Below are positions 1,204-21,629 of a DNA stretch of 32,407 nt, in pieces. The stretch's first letter is position 1, and each line of letters begins with the position of its first letter. Source of the stretch: a virus. Location of the stretch: the IMG/VR virus record IMGVR_UViG_3300022846_000002, positions 1 through 32,407 of that record. One strand, given 5' to 3'. A program made the translations under genes and the position numbers. The notes below the pieces were generated by a model that was given only the letters and a program-made list of their open reading frames with translations, was not told the DNA's origin and made no database searches.

Positions 1204-1206
1204 AAG

Positions 1207-3611: not shown

Positions 3612-3623
3612 GGAGGGGTGGGG

Positions 3624-3740: not shown

Positions 3741-3763
3741 AGAAGAAAAGGGGGTGGCGGAAC

Positions 3764-4357
3764 ATGGCAAAAGGTGGCAATGGTAATCACCCGAAAAAAG
3801 GTGATTCGATTAAGGTGGATCCGATTAAAAATTTAAAAGATGTGCGTCTGATTAAAAAAATGTTGGCAGATCGACCGCGAGACCTGGCGATCTTTACAGT
3901 GGGCGTCAATACCAACCTGCGGGCATCGGATATACTGAGCCTGCGAGTGGGGCAAGTGCGACACTTGTCTCCCAATGACGAAATTGAGATCAAAGAAAAG
4001 AAGACCCGTAAAAAGAGACGGTTTAATCTTAACGGTGCGGCCGTGATGGCGATCAACGGTCTTCTGGAGGGGCATGCGGGCGAGGACGAGGGCCACCTGT
4101 TTGTCGGGCAGCGGGGGCCTTTGACTGTGAGTACCGTGAATAACATGGTTAAGGCCTGGTGCAGAGAGATTAACCTGAAGGGTAATTATGGGAGCCATAC
4201 ACTGCGGAAGACCTGGGGGTATCATCAGAGGGTTACGTTTGGCGTGGACCTGCCCAGGCTCATGGTCTGCTTTAATCATTCATCGCAAGCGCAGACATTG
4301 GAGTATCTGTGTATCCAGCCGGAAGAGATCAAGAATGTATATGAAAACGAAATATAG
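3764..4357 (+). CDS. minimal tyrosine recombinase (catalytic domain only)
   Basis: Started at ATG 3764 (after GGGGGTGGCGG); 197 aa. All catalytic residues of the tyrosine recombinase family are visible: Arg53 in TNLRASD, a Lys near 79-80, His145-x-x-Arg148 in SHTLRKTWGY, His172 in FNHSS and the nucleophile Tyr181 in TLEYL. Typical phage integrases are 300-400 aa; here the arm-binding and core-binding domains are missing or reduced to about 20 residues. It would catalyse strand exchange at att-like sites or resolve dimers. It is not an integron integrase by length. No att site was identified beside it. Confidence 0.85.
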   Translation: MAKGGNGNHPKKGDSIKVDPIKNLKDVRLIKKMLADRPRDLAIFTVGVNTNLRASDILSLRVGQVRHLSPNDEIEIKEKKTRKKRRFNLNGAAVMAINGLLEGHAGEDEGHLFVGQRGPLTVSTVNNMVKAWCREINLKGNYGSHTLRKTWGYHQRVTFGVDLPRLMVCFNHSSQAQTLEYLCIQPEEIKNVYENEI

Positions 4358-4378
4358 CGGATACTGAGGCGGGGCGAG

Positions 4379-7243
4379 ATGGCTGGATTATTCGACCGGG
4401 TAAAAGACCTGGTGAACATCGTAACATATATTAGTTCAGAGACAGGGGTTGACGCGAAGCGGGCCGGAAGCGGGTCGTATAGAGTCAGCCCCTGTCCTTT
4501 TTGCGGTCACAGCGACTGCTTTACGATTAACGAAAAGGATCAGTTTTTTAAATGCTTCAGCTGCTCGGCCAAGGGAGATGTGATTGAGTTTGAGCAGCAA
4601 TACCGCAACATGGAGCGCCCGCTGGAGGCGGCGAAATCCATAGCAGGCAAGCGGGGGATCCCCGTCCTCGATAATGAGACCGGCGGCGGCACGGCTAAGC
4701 GGCCGAAAGAGAAAGAAAAGGGGGAGGTTGAGCCGCCTGATGCGGGGACAAAGCCGGAGATAGATCCGGACCGGGCACTGGAGGTCCGGCGGATCGCGGC
4801 GGAGTACTACCACGGTCGAATAATGGCGTCGAGGACGGCGCTGGCGTACCAGACGGACGTGCGGCAGCATAGCAGGGAGATCGTGGAGCGCTTTAAGATA
4901 GGCCTGGGCGGCGGCGGCCTGATTGGACATTGCAGGGGGCAGGATGTGACCGTCGCGGAATTGATAGCTGTCGGCCTGGTGAGAGAGCAAAAAAACACAG
5001 GGTTCAGGTCTGTGGTGAATGCGGGAATTACAGTATATCCCCATTTCAGCGGTGACAACATCCTGTTTTTTTCGTTAAAGGATCCTGAAAAGAAAAAAAA
5101 GTGGCAGTTAAAAAAGGAGTGCGCCCCGGAGGGATGGCTCTGTTATGGCCAGGACGCATTAGAGCAGGACGAGCCGGTGATTATAACGGAAGGAGAAAAC
5201 GACCGGATCACGGTGATGGACCTGGGACGATATGAACACGCCATAGCCACAATTGCGTCATACAACGAGCCTGCGATCCTGGAGCGGCTGAAGGCTATTG
5301 CCAAAGGCCGGATATGGTACCTGGCATTCGATAATGACCCTGCGCCACCTAAGTCGGCTGAGGGTGCCGGGGCGCGATATACGCGGCAGTACGCAAATAC
5401 GTTATTGGCCGGGGGCGGTGATGTGCGGGTAATCCGGATCGAGCCTGATCAGCCCGGCACTAAGGTGGACATTGACGATATATTGCGGGCGGCTAAGGAT
5501 CCGAAGGCGGAACTGGCGCGGTTGAAGGATGAGGCGGAAAAGATCACTAAACCGATTCCTGAACCTGATCCAAATAGGGGTACAAAGGCGGGCTCGGTGC
5601 CTATGTCACGCACACCGCCCGAGGCGTATCAATTTAAGAGTTTCGAGGTCCTGGGCGAGCTGAAAGACGAACGGCTGCTGTTCTGGTCGCGGGTTAATGA
5701 GCGGTTGTATGCGGTGGCGTTGAAAGATCTGAATTTAGATAAACTGACGCAAATCGGGGGGATTGAGGTAGCGGCTAAGGTGGCGCGATCATCCCAGACA
5801 ATGAGTGGCGGCCAGGTGTTGTTTTCCGGCGTCAAGAAAAGACTTATCGTGCAGGCCGGGAAGCGGCAGTTATGGGATCCGGAATATTTAGGCCAGGGAT
5901 TACATAACCTGGGCGATCGGATCTTGCTGGTTGTGGGCGGTAAAGCATGGCTATGGGATGGTAAAGACCTGGTGGAGTGGGAACACCCTGTGATCGAAGG
6001 GCGCCTGATAGACTGGCGCCAAGGGTATGATTGGGTAAGTATGCCGGAGGTGCTAAAGTTATTAAAAAAAATGGACAGGGCCGCGGCGAACAGTATCCTG
6101 GAAGAACTATTGAATATATTTTTCCAGTGGGGACTCTCGGGTAAGCTGGATGTGTGGCTGCTGGTGGGCTGGTATCTGGCCCAATGGGTGCAGTCTATAT
6201 GGGCGTGGCGGCCGCACCTGTGGTTGACCGGCACGTCAGGCAGCGGGAAATCAATCATGAAAGAACTCATGACTATATTGGGCGGACGGCTGGCTCTGCC
6301 GTGTGAGGGGCAGACATTGACTGAGCCGGGCCTGCGACAGAGTATCGGATGTGACTCGGTCCTGGTGGCAATCGACGAAATAGAGAAAAGCGAACATAGA
6401 GATAAAATTATCTACTTCATAAGATCTGCCGGCCGTGGGGGCATTACCCGAAAGGGGTCTTCCGGGCAGAAAGCAGTGGCGGCCACATTGAAACATATGG
6501 TGTTTTTGGGCAGTGTTGAACGTGGATTGTATCGCGCTGCGGAAAACAGTAGATACCTGGCCATCGAAACGAAAAAATTATCTACTTGTCAACCGAAGTT
6601 TCCGAGTAGTTCGGAGGCTGAAAAGATCCGGATCAGGATTGTTGTATATGTCCTCTGGGCCTCGTTTCAGGCAAGGGGGCTGGTGGCTAATATAGGTAAG
6701 ATCGGGGATAATGATCCAAGGTTTGTGGAGTCCTTATCTGTCGCGTTCAGCATGGCTGCAGTATCGTTTGATCAACCAGGGGAGCAAATAACGAGGCTGT
6801 TGGCTGACTACTTAACGGAATGGCGGGAGCGGTTCGAAGGTGGGACGCTGGAGGATGAGGCGAAGTTGGTAGAGGATATTATGATGGCCCAGGTGCGGTT
6901 ACCGGAGGAGGTGGACGGTGAGTTGAGGTCAGATGGCTACGAATCATCCAAAACGCTCTACGTAACTCGGACTGTGTCCCAGCTCGTAAGTAAGGAGCAG
7001 ATGACCGAGGAGTCGAAGAAAGTCCTGGAAGCAAACGGTGTGAAGGCCGTTAAAGACGGCGACAAAGGCCTATTCCTACACCCTGATACAGTCGTAAAGG
7101 CGTTGTTGGCGCGGACCCAATGGCAAGGGCTCAACATTAGAGATATGCTATTGAGGATTGCCGGGGCCAAGGCTAAACAGTTGCGACTGGGCGGCTCACC
7201 TCTCCGGGGGGTGTTGGTCCCATGGGGCATAATTGGGTTGTAA
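4379..7243 (+). CDS. primase / P-loop replicative ATPase fusion
   Basis: 954 aa. Residues 39-62 carry a CHC2-type zinc ribbon (CPFC, then C47, then KCFSC followed by AKGD), as in DnaG and T7 gp4-like primases. A Toprim-like region follows: EPVIITEGENDRITVM at about 265 (acidic Glu) and LAFDND at about 315. The C-terminal half has a Walker A (TGTSGSGKS, about 617-626) and Walker B (LVAIDEIE, about 661), like D5/DUF927-type helicase domains used by phage and plasmid primases. Expected role: priming and unwinding at the phage fork. It starts 21 bases after the recombinase stop and is followed by the putative origin. Confidence 0.8.
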   Translation: MAGLFDRVKDLVNIVTYISSETGVDAKRAGSGSYRVSPCPFCGHSDCFTINEKDQFFKCFSCSAKGDVIEFEQQYRNMERPLEAAKSIAGKRGIPVLDNETGGGTAKRPKEKEKGEVEPPDAGTKPEIDPDRALEVRRIAAEYYHGRIMASRTALAYQTDVRQHSREIVERFKIGLGGGGLIGHCRGQDVTVAELIAVGLVREQKNTGFRSVVNAGITVYPHFSGDNILFFSLKDPEKKKKWQLKKECAPEGWLCYGQDALEQDEPVIITEGENDRITVMDLGRYEHAIATIASYNEPAILERLKAIAKGRIWYLAFDNDPAPPKSAEGAGARYTRQYANTLLAGGGDVRVIRIEPDQPGTKVDIDDILRAAKDPKAELARLKDEAEKITKPIPEPDPNRGTKAGSVPMSRTPPEAYQFKSFEVLGELKDERLLFWSRVNERLYAVALKDLNLDKLTQIGGIEVAAKVARSSQTMSGGQVLFSGVKKRLIVQAGKRQLWDPEYLGQGLHNLGDRILLVVGGKAWLWDGKDLVEWEHPVIEGRLIDWRQGYDWVSMPEVLKLLKKMDRAAANSILEELLNIFFQWGLSGKLDVWLLVGWYLAQWVQSIWAWRPHLWLTGTSGSGKSIMKELMTILGGRLALPCEGQTLTEPGLRQSIGCDSVLVAIDEIEKSEHRDKIIYFIRSAGRGGITRKGSSGQKAVAATLKHMVFLGSVERGLYRAAENSRYLAIETKKLSTCQPKFPSSSEAEKIRIRIVVYVLWASFQARGLVANIGKIGDNDPRFVESLSVAFSMAAVSFDQPGEQITRLLADYLTEWRERFEGGTLEDEAKLVEDIMMAQVRLPEEVDGELRSDGYESSKTLYVTRTVSQLVSKEQMTEESKKVLEANGVKAVKDGDKGLFLHPDTVVKALLARTQWQGLNIRDMLLRIAGAKAKQLRLGGSPLRGVLVPWGIIGL

Positions 7244-9873: not shown

Positions 9874-9907
9874 TCCGCATAACTCCGGTTTTGTGGAGTT
9901 ATGCGGA
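9874..9907. repeat. palindrome at left end of cassette array 1
   Basis: TCCGCATAACTCC (9874-9886) and GGAGTTATGCGGA (9895-9907) are perfectly complementary (13 bp) with an 8-base loop. GCATAAC and GTTATGC at its ends resemble the R'' and R' boxes of an attC site, but the interval is too short for a normal attC. A variant copy stands at the left of array 2. No T-run, so not a typical terminator. Confidence 0.7.
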
Positions 9908-9928
9908 TCTATATAATCACTTGTTATC
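9898..9928 (+). repeat. 31-bp leader shared by both cassette arrays (copy 1)
   Basis: The 31 bases from GTTATGCGG to CTTGTTATC are identical at 14900-14930, and similarity continues through a TCTTAGAAA block to the ribosome site of each first cassette gene. It includes TATAAT at 9912-9917, a perfect -10 box, with only a poor -35 (TTGTGG or TTTTGT) 15-17 bases upstream. It may be the array promoter or an integration platform. Confidence 0.7.
9912..9917 (+). promoter_or_regulatory. candidate -10 box for cassette array 1
   Basis: TATAAT is exact and conserved in the second array leader (14914-14919). The -35 region is not conserved between the two leaders, so activity would be weak or need an activator. 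Confidence 0.35.
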
Positions 9929-9949
9929 ATCTTAGAAAAGGAGTGTTAC

Positions 9950-10195
9950 ATGAGAAAGTTAATCGAAGACGTTGTTTATGAGAGTTTTACGGCTGGCCTT
10001 AATGAAATACAGGTGGGAACACGAGGCACAGCATTAGAAGCATACCTCATGCCGATAGAGCATCTAAATTGGCAAGAACGAGAGAAATGGCTAACAGATT
10101 ACCGGTTGCGAGATATTAAAAAGCTACTCTCAACACTGAACAATGAACAACTATTATTGTGTTTAACCGCTCAGCATTGCGAAAAGTTCAGCTAA
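9950..10195 (+). CDS. cassette gene 1.1, hypothetical, 81 aa
   Basis: ATG 9950 follows AAAAGGAGTGTTAC (AGGAG). The product is a helical, charged protein with EHLNWQEREKWLTDYRLRDIKKLLSTLNNEQLLLCLTAQH split over residues about 38-76; no family recognised. The stop TAA (10193-10195) lies inside the R'' box of the attC-like site that ends the cassette, as is normal for integron cassettes. More A/T-rich than the neighbouring helicase gene. Function unknown. Confidence 0.65.
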   Translation: MRKLIEDVVYESFTAGLNEIQVGTRGTALEAYLMPIEHLNWQEREKWLTDYRLRDIKKLLSTLNNEQLLLCLTAQHCEKFS

Positions 10196-10246
10196 CCAGC
10201 CGCTTCAGCCGACCGCTAAACGCGGCCGCTGATTAAACCGTTATGC
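10191..10246 (+). other. attC-like recombination site 1
   Basis: Begins GCTAACC (R''-like) and ends GTTATGC (R'; cleavage expected after its G). Between them TTCAGCCGACCGC and CGCGGCCGCTGA can pair imperfectly with extrahelical bases, and the arrangement and wording (TTCAGCCGAC ... CGGCCGCTGATTAAACC) closely resemble classical integron attC sites. Length 56 bp, at the low end of the known range. Confidence 0.75.
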
Positions 10247-10259
10247 GAGGAAGAAATTC

Positions 10260-10532
10260 ATGTTTGACACCTCAAAAAGCATTACAATTATTGAATGTCT
10301 AATAAAAGTTGACGGTTCCTACGAAGAATGGCGCCTTTGCAGTCGAAGATCCAGGGCGATGAGGCTTGAAAAGTGTTTCCCACCCCCCCCTGGATGGAAA
10401 GGTTTGACTATTTGCGAAAGTCAAAACAGAATGATCGATGTGGATTTAACAAAAACCAATTGCGGGAACGTTACAGTTTACCCAAAGCTTACGATTAATG
10501 AAATTGAGGCATTAGGATTACAACAAAGATAA
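10260..10532 (+). CDS. cassette gene 1.2, hypothetical, 90 aa
   Basis: ATG 10260 follows GCGAGGAAGAAATTC (GAGGAAG). It starts 14 bases after the preceding attC-like site, the usual cassette layout. The product begins FDTSKSITIIECLIKVDGSYEEW and has two cysteines in the middle and a C-terminal LTINEIEALGLQQR. No family recognised. Its stop TAA overlaps the R'' box of the next site. Function unknown. Confidence 0.6.
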   Translation: MFDTSKSITIIECLIKVDGSYEEWRLCSRRSRAMRLEKCFPPPPGWKGLTICESQNRMIDVDLTKTNCGNVTVYPKLTINEIEALGLQQR

Positions 10533-10591
10533 CAAATCGTTTAAGAAGGTTGCGGCAAAGGACCGCCGCACCTCTTAACTCAACGTTATAC
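10527..10591 (+). other. attC-like recombination site 2
   Basis: AGATAAC (R'') at the left and GTTATAC (R') at 10585-10591. The inner arms AAGAAGGTTGCGGC and GCCGCACCTCTT pair well with two extra bases on one side, the extrahelical-base pattern typical of attC. Length 65 bp. Confidence 0.75.
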
Positions 10592-10604
10592 GCTGGGGAC
10601 TACT

Positions 10605-10883
10605 ATGTGCAGAGGATGTAAAATCCAAATAAATGGTCAATCCAGCACCTACGAATATTTGGATTGGCTTGGAGATTATCATAAAATAATCCAGGACATG
10701 GGAAAGCTAAATAAAAAAATATTGGCTTTTGAGGAAAAAATTGACCGGAGCTACAAAAAACCGGTTTCAGCGTTCAGGCGTCAACTGCTAAGGGTTCGGA
10801 AGCTGTACGCGAAAGCCGATTTTATCTTAAATGATGTGTATAACGAGGCTGATTCAGCCGATTCCACTTCGTTCCACGGCTGA
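10605..10883 (+). CDS. cassette gene 1.3, hypothetical, 92 aa
   Basis: ATG 10605 begins 13 bases after attC-like site 2; the upstream TGGGGAC is a modest ribosome site. The product starts with CRGC (possible metal pair) and then is strongly helical and basic (KIIQDMGKLNKKILAFEEK, LLRVRKLYAKADFILNDVY), possibly a coiled coil. The last ~15 codons are encoded by the attC-like site itself, so the C-terminus (DSADSTSFHG) may not be functional. No family recognised. Confidence 0.6.
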   Translation: MCRGCKIQINGQSSTYEYLDWLGDYHKIIQDMGKLNKKILAFEEKIDRSYKKPVSAFRRQLLRVRKLYAKADFILNDVYNEADSADSTSFHG

Positions 10884-10897
10884 CCTGCACGTTAGAT
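10838..10897 (+). other. attC-like recombination site 3
   Basis: GTATAAC (R'') and GTTAGAT (R', matches the GTTRRRY consensus) bound a 60-bp segment. TCAGCCG and CGGCTGA form the inner stem around an unpaired CACTTCG-containing loop. It overlaps the 3' end of the upstream cassette gene. Confidence 0.75.
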
Positions 10898-10918
10898 TTT
10901 AAAAGAAAGGAGAGCAAA

Positions 10919-11254
10919 ATGACAAGAGAACATAGAACAAGCAGGGGTTGTGACAGAGACCCAGCCAGAGGCGGATCTTCTAAGACTAAGCACGGATATA
11001 ATTTAGAAAATGATGGAGAAGATGGTGCTGGAAGTGATATGTCGCACTGTTATACAAAACGACCCAAAAACCCATTAACTGTAATGCGCGAAAAATATAA
11101 TACAAAAAGTTCTAATAAAATGCGTGATAGAAAAGATATATTGCGAGATTTACACGCTTCGTATCAAGATGGCGGTGTTCACTCAAGTAATTTAACAGTA
11201 CAAATATTACTCGACATCCGAGAAATTTTATCAGAGATAAGCAGCAAAATATAA
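10919..11254 (+). CDS. cassette gene 1.4, hypothetical, 111 aa
   Basis: ATG 10919 follows GAAAGGAGAGCAAA, a strong ribosome site. The product is polar and basic in the first 70 residues (TREHRTSRGCDRDPARGG...), probably disordered, with a helical C-terminus (DILRDLHASYQDG, VQILLDIREILSEISSKI). No family recognised. It is A/T-rich. The stop TAA lies in an attC-like R'' box, placing it as the last cassette of the array. Confidence 0.55.
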   Translation: MTREHRTSRGCDRDPARGGSSKTKHGYNLENDGEDGAGSDMSHCYTKRPKNPLTVMREKYNTKSSNKMRDRKDILRDLHASYQDGGVHSSNLTVQILLDIREILSEISSKI

Positions 11255-11290
11255 CAAGCCGTTCCAGCGGACGAGCGGCTGATCTGGGCG
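11249..11290 (+). other. truncated attC-like site at right end of array 1
   Basis: ATATAAC (R'') followed by AAGCCGTTCCAGCGGACGAG and CGGCTGATCTGGGCG gives the left and central parts of an attC (AGCCG/CGGCT stem), but the expected GTTRRRY box at the right is replaced by GAAGGAG, the ribosome site of the next gene. The array therefore ends in a broken site. Confidence 0.6.
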
Positions 11291-11303
11291 AAGGAGAAAC
11301 ACA

Positions 11304-12119
11304 GTGAGTACTAAGATTGAGTGGGCGGATGAGGTTTGGAATCCGGTTACCGGGTGTTCTCCGGTGTCGGAGGGGTGCCGGAACTGTTATGCCCGGCGGA
11401 TGGCGCAGCGGTTGAAGGGGCGGTTCGGGTACCCGGCGGACGATCCTTTCAAGGTGACTTTCCATCCCGATCGGATAAACCAACCGTTGAAGTGGAAGAA
11501 GCCGCGGCGGGTGTTTGTCTGCTCTATGGGGGATCTTTTTCACCCCGAGGTGGATGAAGCGTGGATACTTAATGTGTGGCAGGCTATGGGTGAATTCTAT
11601 GACGCCGAGGGGAATATCCAACCGGCAAACGACAGACCCGGCCACACATATCTGGTTTTGACGAAGCGGCCGGAGAGGGCGTTGGACTTCCTCGGTACGC
11701 GCTACCCTGAAGGGCATGAAAGGAAAAACGTCTGGGTTGGGGTTACTGCCGAAAATCAGGAGGAGGCAGATCGACGGATACCCGTACTACTGCAGATACC
11801 GGCTGCGCGGCGGTTTGTGTCTCTTGAGCCGTTACTGGGACCGGTGAATCTGGAGTCTTATCTCGGCGGGTATAAGGAAGAGTGGGACGCATGCAACGCT
11901 CACACGATTGATGCGCCGGTATTGGACTGGGTGATAGCGGGGTGTGAGAGCGGCCCGAAGCGAAGGCGAACGGATTGGGAGTGGTTTCGATTTATAAGGG
12001 AGCAGTGTAAGGCGTATGGGCACCGGGTCCCGTTCTTCCTGAAGCAGATGGATGTTGACGGGAAGTTGGTTAAAATGCCCGCGTTGGATGGGAAGGTCTG
12101 GGATGAGGTGCCGGAATGA
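11304..12119 (+). CDS. DUF5131 family protein (phage Gp37/Gp68-like)
   Basis: GTG start 11304 after GAAGGAGAAACACA; 271 aa. The N-terminus IEWADEVWNPVTGCSPVSEG followed by CRNCYARRMA is the signature of the DUF5131/Gp37-Gp68 family: Cys18, Cys25 and Cys28, a cluster that suggests Fe-S or metal binding and distant kinship to radical SAM proteins. Further family blocks are VFVCSMGDLFH, YLVLTKRPER, NVWVGVTAEN and SLEPLLGP. Common in phages and mobile elements; enzymatic role not established to my knowledge. Length is typical. It begins right at the broken end of cassette array 1. Confidence 0.85.
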   Translation: MSTKIEWADEVWNPVTGCSPVSEGCRNCYARRMAQRLKGRFGYPADDPFKVTFHPDRINQPLKWKKPRRVFVCSMGDLFHPEVDEAWILNVWQAMGEFYDAEGNIQPANDRPGHTYLVLTKRPERALDFLGTRYPEGHERKNVWVGVTAENQEEADRRIPVLLQIPAARRFVSLEPLLGPVNLESYLGGYKEEWDACNAHTIDAPVLDWVIAGCESGPKRRRTDWEWFRFIREQCKAYGHRVPFFLKQMDVDGKLVKMPALDGKVWDEVPE

Positions 12120-12162
12120 GGGAAAGATGAACATCCAACATCGAATGGAAATGGGGTAGACG

Positions 12163-12312
12163 ATGGCGGATACGATTGTGTGGATGGCTGAGGAGCGGGT
12201 TAAGGAGGGCGGGGATAAGGACCTGGTTAGGGCGATTTATGCGGTATCGATGGAGATAGACCTATTGGTGGGTGAGAAAATGAAGGATATGAAAGGAAAT
12301 AATCATGAATGA
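12163..12312 (+). CDS. 49-aa hypothetical protein
   Basis: ATG 12163 follows TGGGGTAGACG, a weak ribosome site. The product is helical and charged (WMAEERVKEGGDKDLVRAIY, then MEIDLLVGEKMKDMKG). It overlaps the next small gene by eight bases (ATGAATGA). No family recognised. A TCCAACATCGAATGGA patch just upstream resembles the repeat units seen elsewhere in the window. Confidence 0.45.
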   Translation: MADTIVWMAEERVKEGGDKDLVRAIYAVSMEIDLLVGEKMKDMKGNNHE

Positions 12313-12454
12313 AATCGATAAGTTTGTGAACAGTTGGAAGTATGCCTTTATCGTGGGGATGACTTTTGCCGCCGTTACATGGATAAAGTTGATACTAAAG
12401 ATGCGAGATGCAGGCCTATCATGGCCAGAGTTGCTGGAAAAAGTATTCCAATAA
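12305..12454 (+). CDS. 49-aa single-span membrane peptide
   Basis: ATG 12305 follows GAAAGGAAATAATC. Residues about 12-30 (KYAFIVGMTFAAVTWIKLIL) form one hydrophobic helix with basic residues on both sides. Size and topology would allow a holin-like or spanin-like role, but there is no endolysin in the window to support that. Its last 80 bases overlap the convergent minus-strand gene. Confidence 0.45.
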   Translation: MNEIDKFVNSWKYAFIVGMTFAAVTWIKLILKMRDAGLSWPELLEKVFQ

Positions 12455-12653
12455 TCCATTTCCAGTAGCGGCGGCAGAAGCGTCCTATGCCATTGAAAAC
12501 TTTAGCGATAACCGGCGGATTGAATCTGTCGGGAAGAAGCGGTGTTTGTGGCTCACCGAACTTGTCTCTCTGGAGGTCCGTGAGGTTATCGATGCTGTAT
12601 GGGATGGGTGTTCCGCGATACCATTCTTTCATCTTACGAGAGATATTCACCAT
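12375..12653 (-). CDS. membrane protein, 92 aa (only convincing minus-strand gene)
   Basis: On the minus strand AGGAGG stands seven bases before the ATG (12651-12653), the best ribosome site in the area. The product has a soluble N-terminal part (TPIPYSIDNLTDLQRDKFGE, PQTPLLPDRFNPPVIAK) and a C-terminal transmembrane helix (WKWIIGILFPATLAMIGLHL, about residues 65-85). No family recognised. It is divergent from the BRO-N gene and convergent with the + strand small genes, the layout of a lysogeny or superinfection gene, though no repressor motif is present. + strand frames over the same bases have no comparable start signals. Confidence 0.6.
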   Translation of the reverse strand: MVNISRKMKEWYRGTPIPYSIDNLTDLQRDKFGEPQTPLLPDRFNPPVIAKVFNGIGRFCRRYWKWIIGILFPATLAMIGLHLASLVSTLSM

Positions 12654-12685
12654 TTATGATCCTCCTGTATTATTGCAGATGCTGC

Positions 12686-12715
12686 AATGTAGCAGATAAA
12701 GTGCTTCAATGTCAA
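12686..12715 (-). promoter_or_regulatory. candidate promoter for the minus-strand gene
   Basis: On the minus strand TTGACA (12710-12715) is followed after 18 bases by TACATT (12686-12691). CTGCAATGTAGCAG nearby (about 12682-12695) is an inverted repeat of CTGC/GCAG overlapping the -10, suggestive of an operator. Confidence 0.4.
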
Positions 12716-12736
12716 ATAAAAAATAAAAAAAACATC

Positions 12737-12765
12737 TTGACAAGGGATAAAGGATTTGTTATGGA
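12737..12765 (+). promoter_or_regulatory. candidate promoter for leader RNA and BRO-N gene
   Basis: TTGACA at 12737-12742 is exact. The -10 17 bases later (TATGGA) is poor. Divergent from the minus-strand promoter about 20 bases away, giving a compact control region. Confidence 0.3.
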
Positions 12766-12794
12766 AATAACTGTCATAACTCTAAAGAGGCTGT

Positions 12795-12840
12795 CCCCGG
12801 CCTTGCCGCGCCATTTTTGTGACGCGGAAGGGGGTGTTTT
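12795..12840 (+). terminator. hairpin in leader upstream of BRO-N gene
   Basis: CCCC (12795) pairs with GGGG (12830) and CCGCG (12806-12810) with CGCGG (12823-12827), followed by GTTTTTATTA. It resembles an early terminator or the first domain of a structured leader. A 51-aa frame (12761-12916) spans this and the next element but is probably not translated. Confidence 0.4.
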
Positions 12841-12858
12841 TATTAGGGCTTATTCTTT

Positions 12859-12938
12859 GCGCCCGAGTGTCCGAAGCGTGGCAACACGCCGAGGGTGGTC
12901 TCCTTTAGAGCCATGACAGCACTCGGGCGCTTTTTTTT
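12859..12938 (+). ncRNA. three-way-junction leader RNA ending in a terminator
   Basis: An 11-bp perfect outer stem (GCGCCCGAGTG 12859-12869 with CACTCGGGCGC 12920-12930) encloses two hairpins: GCGTG-GCAA-CACGC (12876-12889, a GNRA tetraloop) and TGGTCTC/GAGCCA (12896-12913, one bulge). Eight T residues follow the outer stem. The shape is that of a terminator-coupled structured leader (riboswitch-like or attenuator) 40 bases before the BRO-N gene. No known riboswitch core is recognised. Confidence 0.55.
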
Positions 12939-12979
12939 GTGCCCTAAACGTCAAACTTCTAAAGGAAGGAGAATGAATC

Positions 12980-13804
12980 ATGACTAATGTAATTCCATTT
13001 GAGTATGAGGAGCAGGATGTGCGGGTGATCCGAGATGAAAGTGGGGAGCCCTGGTTTGTTGGAAAGGATGTTTGTGTTATTTTGGAGCTTGAAAATGTAA
13101 GTATGGCACTTGAAAAGCTGGATGATGATGAAAAGGGTATCAAAAATATTGATACCCTTGGAGGCGCACAGGACATGGCGACCATTTCCGAATCCGGTCT
13201 TTACACCCTGATTGTCCGATCGAACAAGGAGGCGGCTAAACCTTTTCGGCGGTGGGTGACCCATGATGTGCTTCCCTCCCTCCGCAAAACGGGGCAGTAT
13301 GCCATACCGGGTGCGGATGAGGAGGCGGATCAGGCGGCTGTGGATGCGATATCCCAGTTGAACGAGACAATGGCCTCGGTGAATGCGGCGGTGCGGGGGT
13401 TGACGGCGGTATATGGCAGGCCCGGCTATGACGGCGATTATCTGACCGGGAAAGGACCTGCTACGAGTTTCGGAGCCAGGCCTGTATCCCGGGTCCTCCG
13501 GATGAAGGATGAAACGGTTCGGGATTTCTTAGAAAGCTGCTGTTTGATGCACGCGGATGCCTCGTGTCGCCCCATGGAACTTCATGAGGCGTATCAGGGG
13601 TGGTGCAAAGATGCGCAGGGTGTGCCCCTGGGCCGCAATACGTTTTACAGGTCCTTGCGGGAAATCGCTGCACGGATGGTTTTTACATCCCAGTCGGTAC
13701 CTGATGAGAACGGGGGTATCACCTGTATTCGTGTGGCACACGGGGTCTGTCTGAATCGGACCGGGCGGTATTATGCGGTTGCCTGGGAAGGCGGTGCATC
13801 ATGA
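12980..13804 (+). CDS. BRO-N domain antirepressor protein
   Basis: 274 aa; ATG 12980 after AAAGGAAGGAGAATGAATC. Residues about 4-105 are a BRO-N domain: VIPFEYEEQDVRVIRDESGE, PWFVGKDVC, then ATISESGLYTLIVRSNKEAA and KPFRRWVTHDVLPSLRKTGQY, all diagnostic blocks. The C-terminal domain (about 180-265: VRDFLESCCLMH, GRNTFYRSLREI) resembles the winged-helix domain at the end of phage/plasmid primases and some antirepressors. Such proteins counteract repressors or regulate early/late switching. It follows the structured leader, so expression may be attenuated. Its TGA overlaps the next ATG. Confidence 0.85.
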   Translation: MTNVIPFEYEEQDVRVIRDESGEPWFVGKDVCVILELENVSMALEKLDDDEKGIKNIDTLGGAQDMATISESGLYTLIVRSNKEAAKPFRRWVTHDVLPSLRKTGQYAIPGADEEADQAAVDAISQLNETMASVNAAVRGLTAVYGRPGYDGDYLTGKGPATSFGARPVSRVLRMKDETVRDFLESCCLMHADASCRPMELHEAYQGWCKDAQGVPLGRNTFYRSLREIAARMVFTSQSVPDENGGITCIRVAHGVCLNRTGRYYAVAWEGGAS

Positions 13805-14067
13805 CGGAACCTGAATCTTTTCCGGCTGTTAATATGTATTTGGGGCATATCGACCGGGCGGCCCAGGGGTTGACCGGTCTCGGGATGGTACTCCATGCGC
13901 TGCAGATCGGAGGTGACTTTGAGGAGCCCGGGGATCGGCTGATTGACAATATGCGGCTGACAGGCGGGTTGTATTCGTGTATTGAGGCCCTGGCATGGGC
14001 CATCTCCATAGAGCTGGAGAGTATAAAGGCGAGCTTGGAATTGTATGAGGTGCACAGGAAGGGGTAA
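13801..14067 (+). CDS. hypothetical protein, 88 aa
   Basis: ATG overlaps the BRO-N stop (ATGA), so it is translationally coupled. The product is helical, with GHIDRAAQGLTGLGMVLHAL and a C-terminal AISIELESIKASLELYEVHR. No family recognised. It may be a partner or modulator of the antirepressor, by position only. Confidence 0.6.
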   Translation: MTEPESFPAVNMYLGHIDRAAQGLTGLGMVLHALQIGGDFEEPGDRLIDNMRLTGGLYSCIEALAWAISIELESIKASLELYEVHRKG

Positions 14068-14089
14068 ACGGCGCACATTGATTAGTTTT

Positions 14090-14165
14090 TTCTCTGTGAC
14101 TCTGTGATCTCTGTGAGAGATTTTTAAAAAACGTCTCACACAGAGGCGCAGAGGACGCAGGGGAG
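14090..14165. repeat. CTCTGTG palindromic repeat (arms in reverse order)
   Basis: TCTCTGTGACTCTGTGATCTCTGTGAGAGA-type arm followed, after a T/A-rich loop, by a CTCACACAGAGGCGCAGAGG arm. The same two arms occur, in opposite order, in the virion module spacers (for example 19401-19484). Lies between two genes and ends just before the ribosome site of the next. Confidence 0.65.
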
Positions 14166-14177
14166 GGGTGAGATATT

Positions 14178-14546
14178 ATGTTATCCTGTACGTGCAATGA
14201 ATGGGAGGGAGACGGTCCTTGCTGGTTTTCTCCTGATGATTTCCAAAAATTGGATACCTCCAGGCGAAAACGCTGCGGGAGTTGTGGGGTGCTTATCGAC
14301 ATCGGGTCGGAGTGTATTGAATTTGCACGAATGAGGCCACCACGAGATGAGGTTGAGTATAGTATCTGGGGAGAGGACGGCGAGATTCCATTGGCATCCC
14401 ACTGGATGTGTGAACATTGTGGGGAAATGTATTTCAACCTTGAGGCCATCGGTTATTGCATTGATATTGATTCTAACATGAACACTCTAATGGCAGAGTA
14501 TCACGAAATGACAGGTTTTCAACGTAACGCGGGAGGTGCAGTATGA
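14178..14546 (+). CDS. Cys-rich zinc-binding-like protein, 122 aa
   Basis: ATG 14178 follows GGGGAGGGGTGAG. Three cysteine pairs are visible: CTC near residue 4-6, CGSCG at about 33-37 and CEHCG at about 78-82, with the RRKRCGSCG loop typical of zinc ribbons. Between them is an acidic, aromatic segment. The last four bases overlap the next gene (ATGA). Probably a metal-stabilised adaptor; function unknown. Confidence 0.6.
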   Translation: MLSCTCNEWEGDGPCWFSPDDFQKLDTSRRKRCGSCGVLIDIGSECIEFARMRPPRDEVEYSIWGEDGEIPLASHWMCEHCGEMYFNLEAIGYCIDIDSNMNTLMAEYHEMTGFQRNAGGAV

Positions 14547-14839
14547 AAAAGGTAATAATGGGATTAGCGGTGGTGGTTTTGGTTTTGGGAGTTTGGGTGA
14601 CGGCCTGGGGGTACCGGGTGACGATTATGGATGATTCGGGGCAGATGCGAACTTACGAGGTCCACGAGGATGGCTCCGGCGGGGCGAATATCTGGAATAT
14701 GGACACCGGGAAGCTGTATAACAGCCGGCGCCAGGGTAGTGGGCGGTATTATCTTGATATGGATACCGGAAAGTCGTTTACGGTGCGGCCGGACTATCCG
14801 TCCGTGGATGTGCCGATTATTATTCCGGGGTTGGAGTGA
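14543..14839 (+). CDS. small exported protein with signal peptide
   Basis: 98 aa. The N-terminus KKVIMGLAVVVLVLGVWVTAWG is a Sec signal peptide (Lys pair, long hydrophobic core, Ala-Trp-Gly end), with cleavage expected near residue 22-24. The mature part is polar with MDTGK occurring twice in a beta-like repeat (NIWNMDTGKLYNSRR; YYLDMDTGKSFTVRP). It ends in VPIIIPGLE. No family recognised. Likely a periplasmic accessory protein. Overlaps the upstream gene by four bases. Confidence 0.6.
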   Translation: MKKVIMGLAVVVLVLGVWVTAWGYRVTIMDDSGQMRTYEVHEDGSGGANIWNMDTGKLYNSRRQGSGRYYLDMDTGKSFTVRPDYPSVDVPIIIPGLE

Positions 14840-14875
14840 GGGCGCAGAGAAAATCGCTGGCACGAAACTTGCTTT

Positions 14876-14930
14876 TCCGCATAACCTCCAAAAACCGAAG
14901 TTATGCGGATCTATATAATCACTTGTTATC
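14876..14930 (+). repeat. leader of cassette array 2 (second copy)
   Basis: TCCGCATAAC (14876-14885) pairs with GTTATGCGGA (14900-14909). Bases 14900-14930 are identical to 9898-9928, including TATAAT at 14914-14919. The palindrome loop differs from copy 1 (CTCCAAAAACCGAA), so the stem ends rather than the centre are conserved. Confidence 0.75.
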
Positions 14931-14950
14931 GTCTTAGAAAGGAGGCTTTT

Positions 14951-15226
14951 ATGCCATTCGTAGATGGAGGATCTTTCACTTTTGCAATGAAAGGGAGTAA
15001 TGGCCGGAAAGTTTTCGGTGCCCATGCAATAGGTGAATTACAAATAAAAGGAACGTTTCATGCGCAAGGCCCACAACCAATAGACAATGATAGTGGCGCA
15101 CCTGAATGGGTTGCAGACTATTTTGATAGTCATGCAGATATTGATCAAATTGCCTTATCTGGAAAGGGTCACAGTGTCATATATGGGCGCATTGACGATA
15201 ACCAAGAAATCGAGCATACCGGCTAA
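14951..15226 (+). CDS. cassette gene 2.1, hypothetical, 91 aa
   Basis: ATG 14951 follows AAAGGAGGCTTTT, a strong ribosome site. The product has a beta-rich N-terminal half (FVDGGSFTFAMKGSNGRKVF; GELQIKGTFHAQG) and an acidic DSHADIDQIALSGKGHSVIY segment. No family recognised. The end of the gene lies inside the following attC-like site. First cassette of array 2; function unknown. Confidence 0.6.
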   Translation: MPFVDGGSFTFAMKGSNGRKVFGAHAIGELQIKGTFHAQGPQPIDNDSGAPEWVADYFDSHADIDQIALSGKGHSVIYGRIDDNQEIEHTG

Positions 15227-15258
15227 AAACACGCCGTCTGCTCATTTCCACGTTATGA
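15196..15258 (+). other. attC-like recombination site 4
   Basis: CGATAAC (R'') and GTTATGA (R') bound 63 bp. The inner arms GAAATCGAGCATACCGGC and GCCGTCTGCTCATTTC pair over most of their length with a single extrahelical base in GAAATcGAGCA, the classical attC signature. It overlaps the 3' end of gene 2.1. Confidence 0.8.
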
Positions 15259-15266
15259 GGAAAGAA

Positions 15267-15665
15267 ATGGAAAAACCGAAGATAGTAGTCATGTGCGGAT
15301 CATCGAAATTTGTTGAAATTATGGCAGTTGCGGAATGGCTGATTGAGCGCAATGAGTTGGCGATTACAATGGGGTTGAGTTTATTGCCTCAATGGTATCC
15401 AGATTGTCCTTCAGATCATCTTGCAGAACATGAAGGCTGCGCCGAAGCTATGGACGAATTGCATTTAAGGAAAATCGATCTTGCCGATGAGATATTTGTC
15501 GTCGATTGGGATGGATATATCGGAGAAAGCACGTCCAAAGAAATAAAATACGCTGAAAAAGAAGGAAAATACATACGATATTTTTCAAGTGATTTTGTTG
15601 GGCGGCAGGTATGTAAGCTCATAACCACTCATTCAAGCGGAAGCGAAAAAGACTGCTCCGCTTAA
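15267..15665 (+). CDS. cassette gene 2.2, nucleoside deoxyribosyltransferase-like (Rossmann-type) protein
   Basis: ATG 15267 follows TGAGGAAAGAA, nine bases after the attC-like site; 132 aa. KIVVMCGSSKF at the N-terminus and DEIFVVDWDGYIGESTSKEI, then KYAEKEGKYIRYF, match the N-terminal strand and the GYIGESTxxEIxYA block of nucleoside 2-deoxyribosyltransferase-like/DUF4406-type proteins. These cleave or transfer deoxyribose, or bind nucleotides. Whether catalytic residues are complete cannot be judged without alignment. The C-terminal ~12 residues are encoded by the next attC-like site. Confidence 0.65.
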   Translation: MEKPKIVVMCGSSKFVEIMAVAEWLIERNELAITMGLSLLPQWYPDCPSDHLAEHEGCAEAMDELHLRKIDLADEIFVVDWDGYIGESTSKEIKYAEKEGKYIRYFSSDFVGRQVCKLITTHSSGSEKDCSA

Positions 15666-15678
15666 TTCCACGTTATAG
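15619..15678 (+). other. attC-like recombination site 5
   Basis: TCATAAC (R''-like) and GTTATAG (R') bound 60 bp, with inner arms AAGCGGAAGC and TGCTCCGCTT around a GAAAAAGAC loop. It overlaps the 3' end of gene 2.2; the next gene starts nine bases after it. Confidence 0.75.
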
Positions 15679-15686
15679 GTGAAAAG

Positions 15687-15911
15687 ATGAGCATGAAATA
15701 TATTAGAGATACGTATGGGGTTCCAGCAAAGCGGGGAATGGAAATCACATTTCAGAAATGTGAACACGTTGAGCCATCAAGAGGTTGGATTGTCGGGTCA
15801 AGGGGACAATATTTGCGAGTTCGATTTGCTGGAAATTTAGGTATATTCACATTGCATCCAACATGGAATATTGTCTACGCTCATATGCCCCCGTCCGTCC
15901 TCAGGGTATAA
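15687..15911 (+). CDS. cassette gene 2.3, conserved small protein, 74 aa
   Basis: ATG 15687 follows ATAGGTGAAAAG; an in-frame ATG two codons on is also possible. MKYIRDTYGVPAKRGMEITF, IVGSRGQYLRVRF and FTLHPTWNIVY are blocks I recognise from a widespread small protein of unknown function found in phages and mobile elements. It looks like a compact beta-barrel. The stop overlaps an attC-like R'' half-site. Function unknown. Confidence 0.65.
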   Translation: MSMKYIRDTYGVPAKRGMEITFQKCEHVEPSRGWIVGSRGQYLRVRFAGNLGIFTLHPTWNIVYAHMPPSVLRV

Positions 15912-15925
15912 CAAGGCTAATCCAC
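15906..15925 (+). other. truncated attC-like site at right end of array 2
   Basis: GTATAACAAGGCTAATCC keeps the R'' box and the first bases of an attC, then continues into an unrelated repeat-rich spacer with no GTTRRRY box. Parallel to the broken site at the right end of array 1. Confidence 0.45.
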
Positions 15926-16192
15926 CAACCCGCAATCCGTAACCCGCAACTTGGCGCCCTTGGCCCTTCAATCATCAATCAATAATCGACAATCCCGCCC
16001 GCCTCGCCTGAAGGCGAAGCCGATGGCGGGCAGGCATCACTCCCTCTTTTTTACCCTTGTCAAGTCTTTTTTTTAAAAATCTACATTTTTTTCTTCCACG
16101 ATAATTCCCGAGAATGGCCGGGAATACCTCCAGCCGGTTTTTTGCCCACCTGTAGGCCTATCGTTTCAAAAACCCGTGCTATAATAAAAACA
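15926..16192. other. repeat-rich spacer before the packaging genes
   Basis: No gene seen. It contains a nested palindrome (GCCCGCC 15997-16003 with GGCGGGC 16025-16031, enclosing TCGCCT/AGGCGA), T-rich tracts, and ATTCCCG/CGGGAAT near 16100-16130. TATAAT stands at 16180-16185 (GTGCTATAATAAAA) without a good -35; it could start late transcription towards the terminase genes. Confidence 0.5.
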
Positions 16193-16231
16193 GTTTTGAG
16201 TTTTGAGTTTTGAGTTTTGAGTTTTGAGTTT
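16193..16231 (+). repeat. heptanucleotide repeat (GTTTTGA)x5
   Basis: Five perfect GTTTTGA units from 16193 to 16227 plus a partial sixth. One of many period-7 arrays in the virion-module spacers. Confidence 0.9.
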
Positions 16232-16255
16232 AAATGTTAATTGAATAATACCGTG

Positions 16256-16336
16256 CCGGGTTGATCACCCGGGGGCGGATAACGATATTAAAAGCGGCTG
16301 TATGGGGCCATGCTTCTCCGTACAGCCGCTTTTTTT
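16256..16336 (+). ncRNA. TGATC-loop two-hairpin element, copy A
   Basis: First hairpin CCGGGT-TGATC-ACCCGG (16256-16272, perfect). After an A-rich linker a second hairpin AAGCGGCTGTATGG ... CCGTACAGCCGCTT (about 16292-16332) runs into seven T (16330-16336), a classic intrinsic terminator shape. The same order of parts occurs at 22035, 30068 and 31991. Located 137 bases before the small terminase start. Confidence 0.75.
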
Positions 16337-16376
16337 ATGAGCAGCTTAAAAAGACGAACTCTAAGAAGACGAATAT

Positions 16377-16458
16377 CGAACATTGAACATCGAACATCGA
16401 ACATCGAATGATGAATGAAGGGCAAAAACTAATAACTAATAACAGATAACTAATAACC
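16377..16458 (+). repeat. heptanucleotide repeats (CGAACAT)n and (TAACTAA)n
   Basis: Six period-7 units from 16377 to 16418 (CGAACAT/TGAACAT drifting to CGAATGA/TGAATGA), then TAACTAA-type units from about 16426 that run up to the CCGGAG ribosome site of the small terminase gene. Confidence 0.85.
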
Positions 16459-16473
16459 GGAGCCGTAGGCGAC

Positions 16474-17139
16474 ATGGCCAACAGACGGACCAAGATCGAG
16501 CAGATGGGGCTTGACAGGCGGATTCAGGAGCTGGTGACCGAAGGGCTTTCTGCCCGGCGGATCGCGGCCCAGGTCAAGATCGAAAACCCGGATGCAAAGG
16601 TGTCCGAGTCGTCCATTGCCCGTTATGTGGGCAAGGTCCGCAATGCGGCCACGGATGAGGCGTTTAAGACCATCCGCGACCATGTGGACAGGGTGGTGCC
16701 TGAGGACCTGAAGGCCCTCGAAGAGATGGAGGGCCAGTGCCTTGAGTGGGCCAGGGAGGCGGGTAAGGACCGGGTAGACCGGATGGCCGATGCCGCAGTC
16801 GCTATCATGGGGAAAGTGCAGTTGTGGCGGTGGATGCTAATTTCAGACACGTATTTTACGGGCAAAGACGAGGATATCGATGTCCTGGTCAGAAAGATCA
16901 TCCGGGAATGCCTGATCTATATGGCCCGGGAGGACCGGCTCCAGTTACAGCGGGACAAGGCTATGAACACGGCCATCAAGATCATCGATCTGAAGTTGAG
17001 ACAGGCCGGATTATTAGACGATGAGGGAAAGAGCCCGATCTATATCGTGGATCGCACGGGCGGCAAACGTCCGGAAGACAACAAGGAAGACCATTCAACA
17101 TACAAACCCTATATCGTCGGGAGCAAGAAGGATGGCTGA
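16474..17139 (+). CDS. terminase small subunit (probable)
   Basis: 221 aa. Residues about 14-55 (RRIQELVTEGLSARRIAAQV, then SESSIARYVGKVR) form a helix-turn-helix as in DNA-recognising small terminases. The rest is helical with an acidic, Glu-rich middle and could form the oligomer core. It overlaps the large terminase by eight bases (ATGGCTGA), the usual gene order. Expected role: recognise the phage DNA start (pac/cos) and load the large subunit. Identification rests on HTH plus position. Confidence 0.75.
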   Translation: MANRRTKIEQMGLDRRIQELVTEGLSARRIAAQVKIENPDAKVSESSIARYVGKVRNAATDEAFKTIRDHVDRVVPEDLKALEEMEGQCLEWAREAGKDRVDRMADAAVAIMGKVQLWRWMLISDTYFTGKDEDIDVLVRKIIRECLIYMAREDRLQLQRDKAMNTAIKIIDLKLRQAGLLDDEGKSPIYIVDRTGGKRPEDNKEDHSTYKPYIVGSKKDG

Positions 17140-18586
17140 CGGCTGGTTTGTGGAACTCTCCGAGACCCAGGACGCCTTTGTGCATTCCGCTGCAGAGGTG
17201 GTCATGCTTATGGGTCCAATGGGCGAGGGTAAGACATTCGCCGGGGCAATCGCCCTGGTCCGTCATGCTGCGAGATGCGGGCGGCCTATAAGAGGCGCAC
17301 TTGTCAGGGACACCCACCAGAATATCAAGATATCCACGGCGCCCGACATCAGGGAGATGTTCGGGTCCCGGGTTTCATTTCACGACGACGACAAAAAGAT
17401 GATCATCCATTCCACCCCGAGGGTGGAGATGGACTGCTTCGGTATCGATGACGAGGCCTCCCTGTCAAAATTACAAGGCCCGCAGTACTCGGTGATCTGG
17501 CTTGAAGAACCCGCGCCTATTATTGAGAAGGCGAATGCGGGTCTCCCATACGAGGTGTTTGAGATGGCCCTTGCCAGGGCCGCCCGGCAGAAGGGTACCC
17601 TGATGAGATTGCAGATCACCCAGAACCCGGCGGATGAGGATCACTGGACCGAGGAATTAGCCGCCGGACCGGATATCCTTGCAGTTGATCCGGAGACCGG
17701 GTTTGAGATCCACAAAGAAATCTATCGTATTAAATACCGCGAAAACAAGTTTTTAAACCCCCAGGCCAGGGCCGCCCATATTGCCGCATTCAGCAGGGAC
17801 CCGGGAAAGAAGGCTCGGTATATCGAGGGCCGGGCCGCCCCGGTGATGAGGGGGAAGAAGGTCACACCCGAGTATAACCCCCTGAAACATTTCAGTAGAG
17901 ACACGGTTTTACCGGTGGTCAGGGGCGGTATCGGTGTACGCGGCTGGGACGGTTGGCATAGCCCCTGTTGTGTTATCGGTCAGTTTGTACCGCCAGGCAA
18001 GCTGTGGATACATGATGTGTGTGCGGGCGATAATATCGGGGTTAAGGAATTAATCGCGGAGAAGGTCGAACCCCTGCTCAACAGCCCCAAGTACAAGAAT
18101 AATATTTTTGACTGGCGGGATATCGGCGATCTGACCATGCGGACCCCGGACCAGTCCACCCGGATCGAGTCGGCGTCCAAACGGGTGGAGCGTATGCTCA
18201 AGACCCGTTTTGAACCGGGACCCACCCGATGGGTATCGCGGATCGATCCACTCAAAACCTCACTTCTCATGTCTGCCACAGACGGCTCCCCCAGGATTTT
18301 TATTTCAAAGTCGGCATACCTGCTTCACCGCGCCCTCAACGGCGGCTGGCACTGGAAAAAAGATAATTCCGGAAACATCGTGGGTACCCTGCCTGTCAAG
18401 GACAAGTTTTCGCATCCGGGCGATGCGTTTGCGTACATGGTGAGTGTGCTATTTCCGTATGTCAAGTTGCCGAAAAATAAAAGACTCAGTCTTGAAGAGA
18501 AGATGAAAAAGACGAAGTTGGCGCGGTCTTATCGCGGAGGGAATTACGGGGGCCGATCGAGGGTTGGGATGAGAGCGGTGGGGTAG
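17132..18586 (+). CDS. terL: terminase large subunit
   Basis: Started at ATG 17132 (GCAAGAAGG upstream); 484 aa. Walker A MGPMGEGKT (residues 27-35) and Walker B SVIWLEEP (about 119-126) form the packaging ATPase. The C-terminal nuclease shows RGWDGWHSP (about 268), DWRDIGDL (about 325) and HPGDAFAYMV (about 427), the acidic metal-binding set of terminase nucleases. It powers DNA translocation into the prohead and cuts the concatemer. Length matches the family. The gene is followed by repeat-filled spacer rather than a tight operon. Confidence 0.9.
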   Translation: MADGWFVELSETQDAFVHSAAEVVMLMGPMGEGKTFAGAIALVRHAARCGRPIRGALVRDTHQNIKISTAPDIREMFGSRVSFHDDDKKMIIHSTPRVEMDCFGIDDEASLSKLQGPQYSVIWLEEPAPIIEKANAGLPYEVFEMALARAARQKGTLMRLQITQNPADEDHWTEELAAGPDILAVDPETGFEIHKEIYRIKYRENKFLNPQARAAHIAAFSRDPGKKARYIEGRAAPVMRGKKVTPEYNPLKHFSRDTVLPVVRGGIGVRGWDGWHSPCCVIGQFVPPGKLWIHDVCAGDNIGVKELIAEKVEPLLNSPKYKNNIFDWRDIGDLTMRTPDQSTRIESASKRVERMLKTRFEPGPTRWVSRIDPLKTSLLMSATDGSPRIFISKSAYLLHRALNGGWHWKKDNSGNIVGTLPVKDKFSHPGDAFAYMVSVLFPYVKLPKNKRLSLEEKMKKTKLARSYRGGNYGGRSRVGMRAVG

Positions 18587-18599
18587 GATTGATGATTAG

Positions 18600-18740
18600 G
18601 GAAAAAGTCTCTCGCAGCAGGGACACCGGCGAAGGCGCAGCAGGAACGGCGAAGGCGCAAAGGGAAAAAAAGGCTCTCACAGAGCACACAGAGATCACAG
18701 AGTTTTTACGAATAACTAATAACTAATAACTAATAACCAG
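18600..18740. repeat. spacer repeats: CGCAGCAGG..., CTCTCACAGAG arm, (TAACTAA)n
   Basis: TCTCTCGCAGCAGGGACACC followed by GCGAAGGCGCAGCAGGAACG units (also near 21461 and 27026), then a CTCACAGAGCACACAGAG arm with ATCACAGAG, then AATAACTAATAACTAATAAC. It ends in the same 20-base start region (CAGCCCGGAGGGCTGCAATG) as the spacer before 21630. Confidence 0.8.
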
Positions 18741-18754
18741 CCCGGAGGGCTGCA
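18739..18754 (+). promoter_or_regulatory. ribosome site buried in a hairpin (copy 1)
   Basis: AGCCC-GGA-GGGCT is a 5-bp palindrome that holds the GGAGG Shine-Dalgarno sequence, followed by GCA and the ATG of 18755. The identical context precedes 21630. It could reduce or regulate initiation. Confidence 0.55.
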
Positions 18755-19015
18755 ATGGGGAAGTACGACAGGTATTGGGAGATGACGGAGGGGGGGCCCT
18801 ATGATCAGGAGGGTGAGAAGAATGAGATCTTTAAGTGTAAGGACTGCGGGGCCGAGACCTTTCCGGATGAGGGGCATAATGGCGAGCCGGATCCCCGGGG
18901 CTGCCATGCCGGCTGTAAGTCCAGGAGTGAGGACTGGGCGCCGGGGAGAGTGAGCAGGCCGTACAAGGCGAATTTTGACCGGATATTTCCGAATGCGTTG
19001 GGCGCGCGGATTTAG
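18755..19015 (+). CDS. 86-aa zinc-finger-like protein
   Basis: ATG 18755 with the hairpin-borne GGAGG site. Residues about 28-55 contain CKDCG, then CHAGCKS, a four-cysteine set consistent with one zinc knuckle. The rest is polar, with an acidic middle and a basic C-terminus (RPYKANFDRIFPNALGARI). Placed between terminase and portal genes; function unknown. Confidence 0.6.
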   Translation: MGKYDRYWEMTEGGPYDQEGEKNEIFKCKDCGAETFPDEGHNGEPDPRGCHAGCKSRSEDWAPGRVSRPYKANFDRIFPNALGARI

Positions 19016-19340: not shown

Positions 19341-19400
19341 ACAATCGAATAACGAATAACCGAGGTAAGCGAAGACTCCGATGATAAATGAAGGGAAAAA

Positions 19401-19510
19401 AAGTCTCTCACAGAGACCGCAGAGATCACAGAGTCTTTTATTTATAAATCTTTTCTCTGTGTCCTCTGTGTCCTCTGTGAGAGAAAATCTTTTAAACTTT
19501 GTATCTTTGC
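19401..19510. repeat. CTCTGTG hairpin repeat, uninterrupted copy
   Basis: TCTCTCACAGAGACCGCAGA... arm (19401-19435) and ...CTCTGTGTCCTCTGTGAGAGA arm (19455-19484) pair imperfectly around a T/A-rich loop; AAATCTTTTAAACTTTG follows. This copy lacks the 36-bp insert found in the copies at 26171 and 29902, so it shows the empty site (junction after 19464). Confidence 0.8.
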
Positions 19511-21440: not shown

Positions 21441-21454
21441 ATTTTGAATGAAGG

Positions 21455-21612: not shown

Positions 21613-21629
21613 CAGCCCGGAGGGCTGCA

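Follow-up and report, generated by a model that had tools for sequence, protein, structure and literature searches.

Two arrays of integron-type gene cassettes without an integron integrase in a tailed phage genome

Whether a run of small genes in the early region of a phage genome consists of integron gene cassettes, and how such cassettes could have come to lie there, was the question raised by IMG/VR record IMGVR_UViG_3300022846_000002. The whole record of 32,407 bases, which may be a fragment, was analyzed and is referred to here as the window. It encodes a terminase, a portal-type protein, a head protein, a primase, a helicase and a phage integrase; the virus is a tailed phage, and the arrays sit in its early region. 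The original prediction, made from the letters of the DNA, held that seven small genes here are each followed by an attC-like site (five complete, two broken), that they form two groups, and that no integron integrase accompanies them.

attC sites and cassettes of the early region

A gene cassette consists of one small promoterless gene and one attC site lying in the same direction and bounded by G^TT junctions; the attC site recombines with IntI as its bottom strand. For detection of attC sites, a covariance model (R1) was built without any window sequence from 34 aligned attC sites of intI-bearing Desulfosarcinaceae genomes, chosen by pairing score in stretches adjoining TIGR02249 genes. The R1 consensus has R''/R' pairs and an L''/L' helix with one extrahelical base, supported by many compensatory changes. 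Across the whole window, R1 matched precisely the five complete sites that had been predicted at 10191, 10527, 10838, 15196 and 15619, all on the plus strand, with E-values from 6e-6 to 4e-3. These values are rough, and the choice of training sites was guided by the known attC plan. The next-best match in the window reached 10.8 bits (E = 3), and the background was one match in 276 kb of related phage DNA. The sites observed were as follows.

10190-10246, plus strand: attC site 1 (R1, 26.0 bits)
10527-10591, plus strand: attC site 2 (R1, 31.6 bits)
10838-10897, plus strand: attC site 3 (R1, 24.6 bits)
11249-11290, plus strand: attC of cassette 4, complete to the crossover G (R1, 17 bits, model positions 1-54)
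15196-15258, plus strand: attC site 4 (R1, 31.8 bits)
15619-15678, plus strand: attC site 5 (R1, 37.9 bits)
15906-15924, plus strand: left half of an attC, comprising R'' and the beginning of L'', at the end of array 2

All five complete sites show the attC plan, with R'' and R' boxes (..AAC ... GTT..) around paired L'' and L' arms and an extrahelical base. When folded as DNA, the attC bottom strands folded better than shuffled sequences (z from -2.4 to -4.1), and the next gene starts 9-22 bases past the sites, the latter as in the original prediction. The two sites described as broken proved real but different in kind. That at 11249-11290 fits the model to position 54 of 60, where the crossover G of G^TT lies, and in place of its R' box stands the sequence preceding a DUF5131 gene; at 15906-15924 only the left half is present, followed by other intergenic sequence. 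The right ends of both arrays are thus broken, and for this reason precise insertion cannot be read by joining the flanks. A further stretch in the primase gene (5053-5113), flagged by a first pairing score, gave no match with R1 and was set aside.

Together with these sites, the open reading frames define seven cassettes, four in array 1 (about 9874-11290) and three in array 2 (about 14876-15924).

9924-10240, plus strand: cassette 1 (ORF 9950-10195, 81 aa)
10241-10585, plus strand: cassette 2 (ORF 10260-10532, 90 aa)
10586-10891, plus strand: cassette 3 (ORF 10605-10883, 92 aa)
10892-11290, plus strand: cassette 4 (ORF 10919-11254, 111 aa)
14926-15252, plus strand: cassette 5 (ORF 14951-15226, 91 aa)
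15253-15672, plus strand: cassette 6 (ORF 15267-15665, 132 aa; widespread phage gene family)
15673-15924, plus strand: cassette 7 (ORF 15687-15911, 74 aa; cut within its own attC)

Each has the make-up of a gene cassette, cassette 7 being cut. The layout of seven small genes plus attC in two groups was therefore confirmed by an independent covariance model and by the cassette ends. The predicted span of 9874-15925 holds as far as it encloses both arrays; it is not continuous, since 3.6 kb of phage genes with a G+C content above that of the arrays separate them.

When a cassette is a circle, its opening bases pair with the R'' box of that same cassette. Such pairing was seen in cassettes 3, 4, 5 and 6 and less so in the remaining three; over all seven, the own-pair score was 28 against a permutation mean of 21, a value reached by 1.6% of all permutations. 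In cassette 5 this pairing extends over nine bases, and from it the start of array 2 was set at 14925/14926. For the 5' end of cassette 1, the best fit was instead the R'' of cassette 5, and the first bases of cassette 1, together with the leader of array 1, were on this ground probably copied from array 2.

The two cassette stretches have G+C contents of 41.3% and 42.3%, compared with 51.0% for the whole window and 55-57% for the terminase, head protein and similar phage genes. With 41-42% G+C in a 51% genome, the cassette stretches are foreign in composition. Both arrays were also present in near-identical contigs from three other metagenome records, and array 2 alone in one more, so that an assembly chimera is not the source of the arrays. 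All of these copies are identical, with no gain or loss of cassettes within the population.

As predicted, the window holds no integron integrase: there was no match to TIGR02249, and hence no intI gene of the kind that defines a complete integron. No integron integrase scored over the cut-off in the related phage records or in the other attC-bearing virus records searched, all but L096. By contrast with a complete integron, a CALIN is a cluster of at least two attC sites lying close together without an integron integrase. Given the attC clusters, and given that no integron integrase above the cut-off was found in the window or in the searched capsid relatives, the arrays are two CALINs. Here, then, small foreign genes are organized exactly as bacterial integron gene cassettes, minus the mobilizing enzyme. 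The attC model, the cassette ends, the low G+C content, the state of the corresponding slots in relatives, the lack of intI and the occurrence of cassette 6 in another phage array (see below) all support the predicted reading, and by these sequence criteria we regard the seven genes as real integron gene cassettes.

What the cassettes encode was examined by PADLOC defense-gene and NCBIfam searches, which gave no meaningful match for any cassette. No relative was found for the 81-aa product of cassette 1, and in viral contigs the only relatives of cassettes 1 and 5 were copies of this phage. Cassette 7 belongs to the phrog_2730 family, seen in unrelated phages. Searches of 389 host-class genomes with the seven genes yielded four matches, to cassettes 6 and 7 only, none of which adjoins an attC.

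The shared leader

Both arrays are preceded by a leader of about 67 bp, in which a hairpin with inverted GTTATGC boxes is followed by GGATCTATATAATCACTTG and finally by TTATC. It occurs in exactly two copies in the window (9874 and 14876), and its parts are listed here.

9874-9907, plus strand: leader hairpin of array 1 (TCCGCATAAC..GTTATGCGGA; inverted GTTATGC boxes, 13-bp perfect stem, z -9.6)
9897-9939, plus strand: direct repeat shared with array 2, with a TATAAT and, at G 9923, the presumed junction CTTG^TTATC
14876-14909, plus strand: leader hairpin of array 2 (z -7.1)
14899-14941, plus strand: direct repeat shared with array 1, with the presumed junction G at 14925

The loop of the array 2 hairpin approximates the reverse complement of the array 1 loop. 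A promoter scan did not bring either leader to threshold. The leader was found neither in the other viral contigs searched, nor in a collection of 84,980 species (one genome per species), nor in 30 genomes that represent the bacterial family of a Desulfosarcina metagenome-assembled genome (MAG); 19 of these 30 Desulfosarcinaceae genomes contain TIGR02249 matches over the cut-off. Comparison with the attI regions of 15 Desulfosarcinaceae integrons showed no likeness. As to the attI site that a complete integron would have, the shared leader has a G^TT box yet does not resemble attI sites from the likely host family and, since it also occurs in none of the genomes searched, its role as a landing site for cassettes is a guess.

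A parallel comes from published phage CALINs. In Tetrasphaera phage TJE1, a hairpin with two inverted GTTRRRY boxes lies immediately before the CALIN (PMC9892861), much as a hairpin with inverted GTT boxes stands at the array edge here; we take this likeness as a lead and not as proof of a landing site. Shewanella prophage M16-3 has similar GTT boxes at its array edges and, like the window phage, carries two arrays in one genome, each opening with a common sequence (PMC9892861). That shared start is of attI type, unlike the window leader, which matches none of the 15 attI sites examined, and M16-3, regarded as a cryptic prophage, possesses intI and with it a complete integron, whereas the window phage has no intI.

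Related phages and cassettes in other viruses

Related phages were collected by a search with the head protein, which gave 18 virus records at 65-100% identity. Near-identical records that reach the arrays repeat them unchanged. A more distant relative, G004 (contigs L013 and L086), shares 89% identity with the window phage in the head protein, 61% in the helicase and 75% in the integrase. One unrelated gene occupies its slot 1, which runs from the helicase to the start of the DUF5131 gene; its slot 2 is taken up by a plain gene related to cassette 6 (45% identity). No gene lies in slot 2 of L012. R1 detected no attC in G004 or L012. The comparison with relatives thus went the way of the original prediction: the slots are kept and are filled by other genes or empty, and these arrays are absent. 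Because the slots are otherwise filled or empty in relatives, the arrays are insertions into slots where this phage family accepts extra genes.

Elsewhere in the family, L016 carries one cassette with its attC between the portal gene and the next gene, a position at which L017 has no cassette. The L016 cassette runs into inverted copies of one repeat, and the right end of array 2 into other intergenic sequence; both edges also fit ordinary recombination. A prophage-like relative of the window phage lies in a Desulfosarcina MAG, and, as judged from phage relatives alone, the hosts are likely Desulfosarcinaceae-like sulfate reducers.

Cassette 6 belongs to a family widespread in viral contigs, with 107 confirmed relatives. 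One of these, in L109, has 81% protein identity and lies within a run of attC sites on a phage contig otherwise unrelated to the window phage. The ends of the L109 cassette are those of cassette 6, namely TTATGAGGA on the 5' side and CTCATAAC on the 3' side; the inner part of the attC is different. In L107 and L108, the gene is plain, with 83 and 85% identity to cassette 6, and lacks the shared ends. A tree groups all four with good support in a single clade and places L107 (plain) and L109 (cassette) as sisters. From this placement, the gene has switched between plain and cassette state at least twice on this tree, which does not give the direction. As to function, Pfam and PDB yielded no firm match, although a nucleoside deoxyribosyltransferase was hinted at. 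With both states in one small clade, the family offers a handle on the origin of cassettes and on their plasmid-free spread.

A pattern scan revealed attC sites in eight further virus records, and about eight other contigs have at least two sites, counting L109, L129 and L160, which were reached via cassette 6. Some attC-bearing virus contigs may include host flanks. G401 encodes a portal-type protein and phage recombination genes and has attC clusters at several places. These results suggest that attC-carrying phages are not rare in environmental collections. The two window arrays fit a picture in which phages carry, and perhaps exchange, genes with the bacterial cassette pool.

Three of these records deserve separate mention. 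In L188, the 44-kb phage contig of G401, at least three attC clusters lie at 11817-18674 around the Erf, exonuclease and NinB genes, and one G401 cassette is a DNA methyltransferase. On the phage contig L186 (G407), about eight attC sites, each 80-130 nt long, are spread over 1-4877 and have a phage integrase gene (2919-4100) among them; the stretch is either host flank or phage array. L096, a virus record of 2,039 bp (1-2039), has attC sites with equal scores close to either end and one more midway; it may be two cassettes in a circle or an artifact of assembly.

Origin of the arrays

A 2023 paper (Qi et al., PMC9892861) described phage CALINs, for example in phage TJE1, Polaribacter phage P12002L and Pseudoalteromonas phage PH101, and showed that IntI1 recombines phage attC sites. 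The window arrays therefore belong to a known kind, some details being new. With the published cases they share attC arrays in one direction, small cassettes, the lack of intI and a tailed phage as carrier. Unlike those, there are two arrays in the genome, each behind the same leader; the slots are otherwise filled or empty in relatives, a cassette could be traced to another phage array, and the probable hosts are sulfate reducers. Chromosomal integrons of Desulfosarcinaceae (for example L071, L074 and L082) have the same attC structure with its extrahelical base; they differ in that they carry intI and, in several cases, a common attI with repeats, and the phage arrays lack both. The cassettes also resemble phage "morons" as small genes of foreign composition in tolerant early-region slots, with cassettes 6 and 7 in phage-wide families, yet each gene here is packaged with an attC as a cassette.

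On balance, we consider it likely that these are real cassettes in a phage of sulfate reducers, loaded by the IntI of the host at a leader that was itself copied, kept as accessory genes and carried between hosts. During infection or lysogeny, the host integron integrase would join excised cassettes to the phage, the leader hairpin and CTTG^TTATC box serving as an attI-like landing site. At a later point, the leader would have been copied from slot to slot together with the start of its first cassette, and the cassettes kept as accessory genes in the two gene-tolerant slots. The phage would then transport them between hosts, the right ends of the arrays having decayed. The central step, insertion by host IntI of cassettes that are then carried as accessory genes, is probable; movement between hosts by this phage, which the original prediction had proposed, is plausible, but all copies found are identical.

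The fair rival, which we judge unlikely overall, is that the phage took finished pieces of host arrays by illegitimate or homologous recombination rather than through IntI, with real attC sites as passengers. Events of this type have been proposed for phage CALINs (PMC9892861). The break of array 2 inside an attC and the embedding of the single L016 cassette between inverted repeat copies agree with passive capture, and the same leader at two places can be plain duplication. Against it speak the right boundary of array 1, which is the crossover G of an attC, and the left boundary of array 2, set by pairing at the 5' end of cassette 5. These two points are cassette junctions, and breaks at random would seldom fall on them.

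Two further readings have very little probability. One holds that the sites are common terminators, or RNA hairpins, that separate small phage genes and resemble attC in looks only: attC sites are imperfect palindromes and possible weak terminators (work cited in PMC9892861), but a model derived from intI-adjacent bacterial arrays matches these sites and almost nothing else, base composition and cassette ends speak against it, an Rfam search of the window matched no family, and a terminator scan found none at the attC sites. The other, equally improbable, assigns movement of the cassettes to the phage's own small tyrosine recombinase, which lies on the same contig.

3710-4357, plus strand: phage tyrosine recombinase (phrog_216, catalytic part only)

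As a candidate integron integrase, this gene was rejected; it had no match to that family, its catalytic domain is of a phage integrase family, and a relative keeps the enzyme at 75% identity with no attC found there.

Returning to loading by host IntI, a bolder version is doubtful but conceivable, in which the leader, its hairpin with inverted GTT boxes together with a G^TT core, is a portable phage landing site, copied to two slots for loading by the host enzyme, and phages also feed cassettes such as cassette 6 to bacterial arrays. If true, plain phage genes like that of cassette 6 would become cassettes and be passed to bacterial arrays. The window itself offers a clear case, with relatives compared, of integron cassettes in a phage early region within the setting of an integron-rich bacterial group.

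Several other features of these genomes were recorded. In L086 (about 2900-2990), the DUF5131 gene beside slot 1 has shrunk to a short start of the gene. Long intergenic repeat copies, in both directions, lie between the late genes of the window at 18598-18758, 19391-19502, 21452-21633 and 26103-26254 and again at 27024-27297, 28549-28631, 29900-30036 and 30844-30981; similar repeats occur in relatives, and one such pair flanks the L016 cassette. Tandem repeats of about 57 bp (22352-22527) lie inside the gene preceding the head protein, and a strong hairpin with a T run (16285-16338) stands before a small-terminase-like gene and is kept in L012 and L013.
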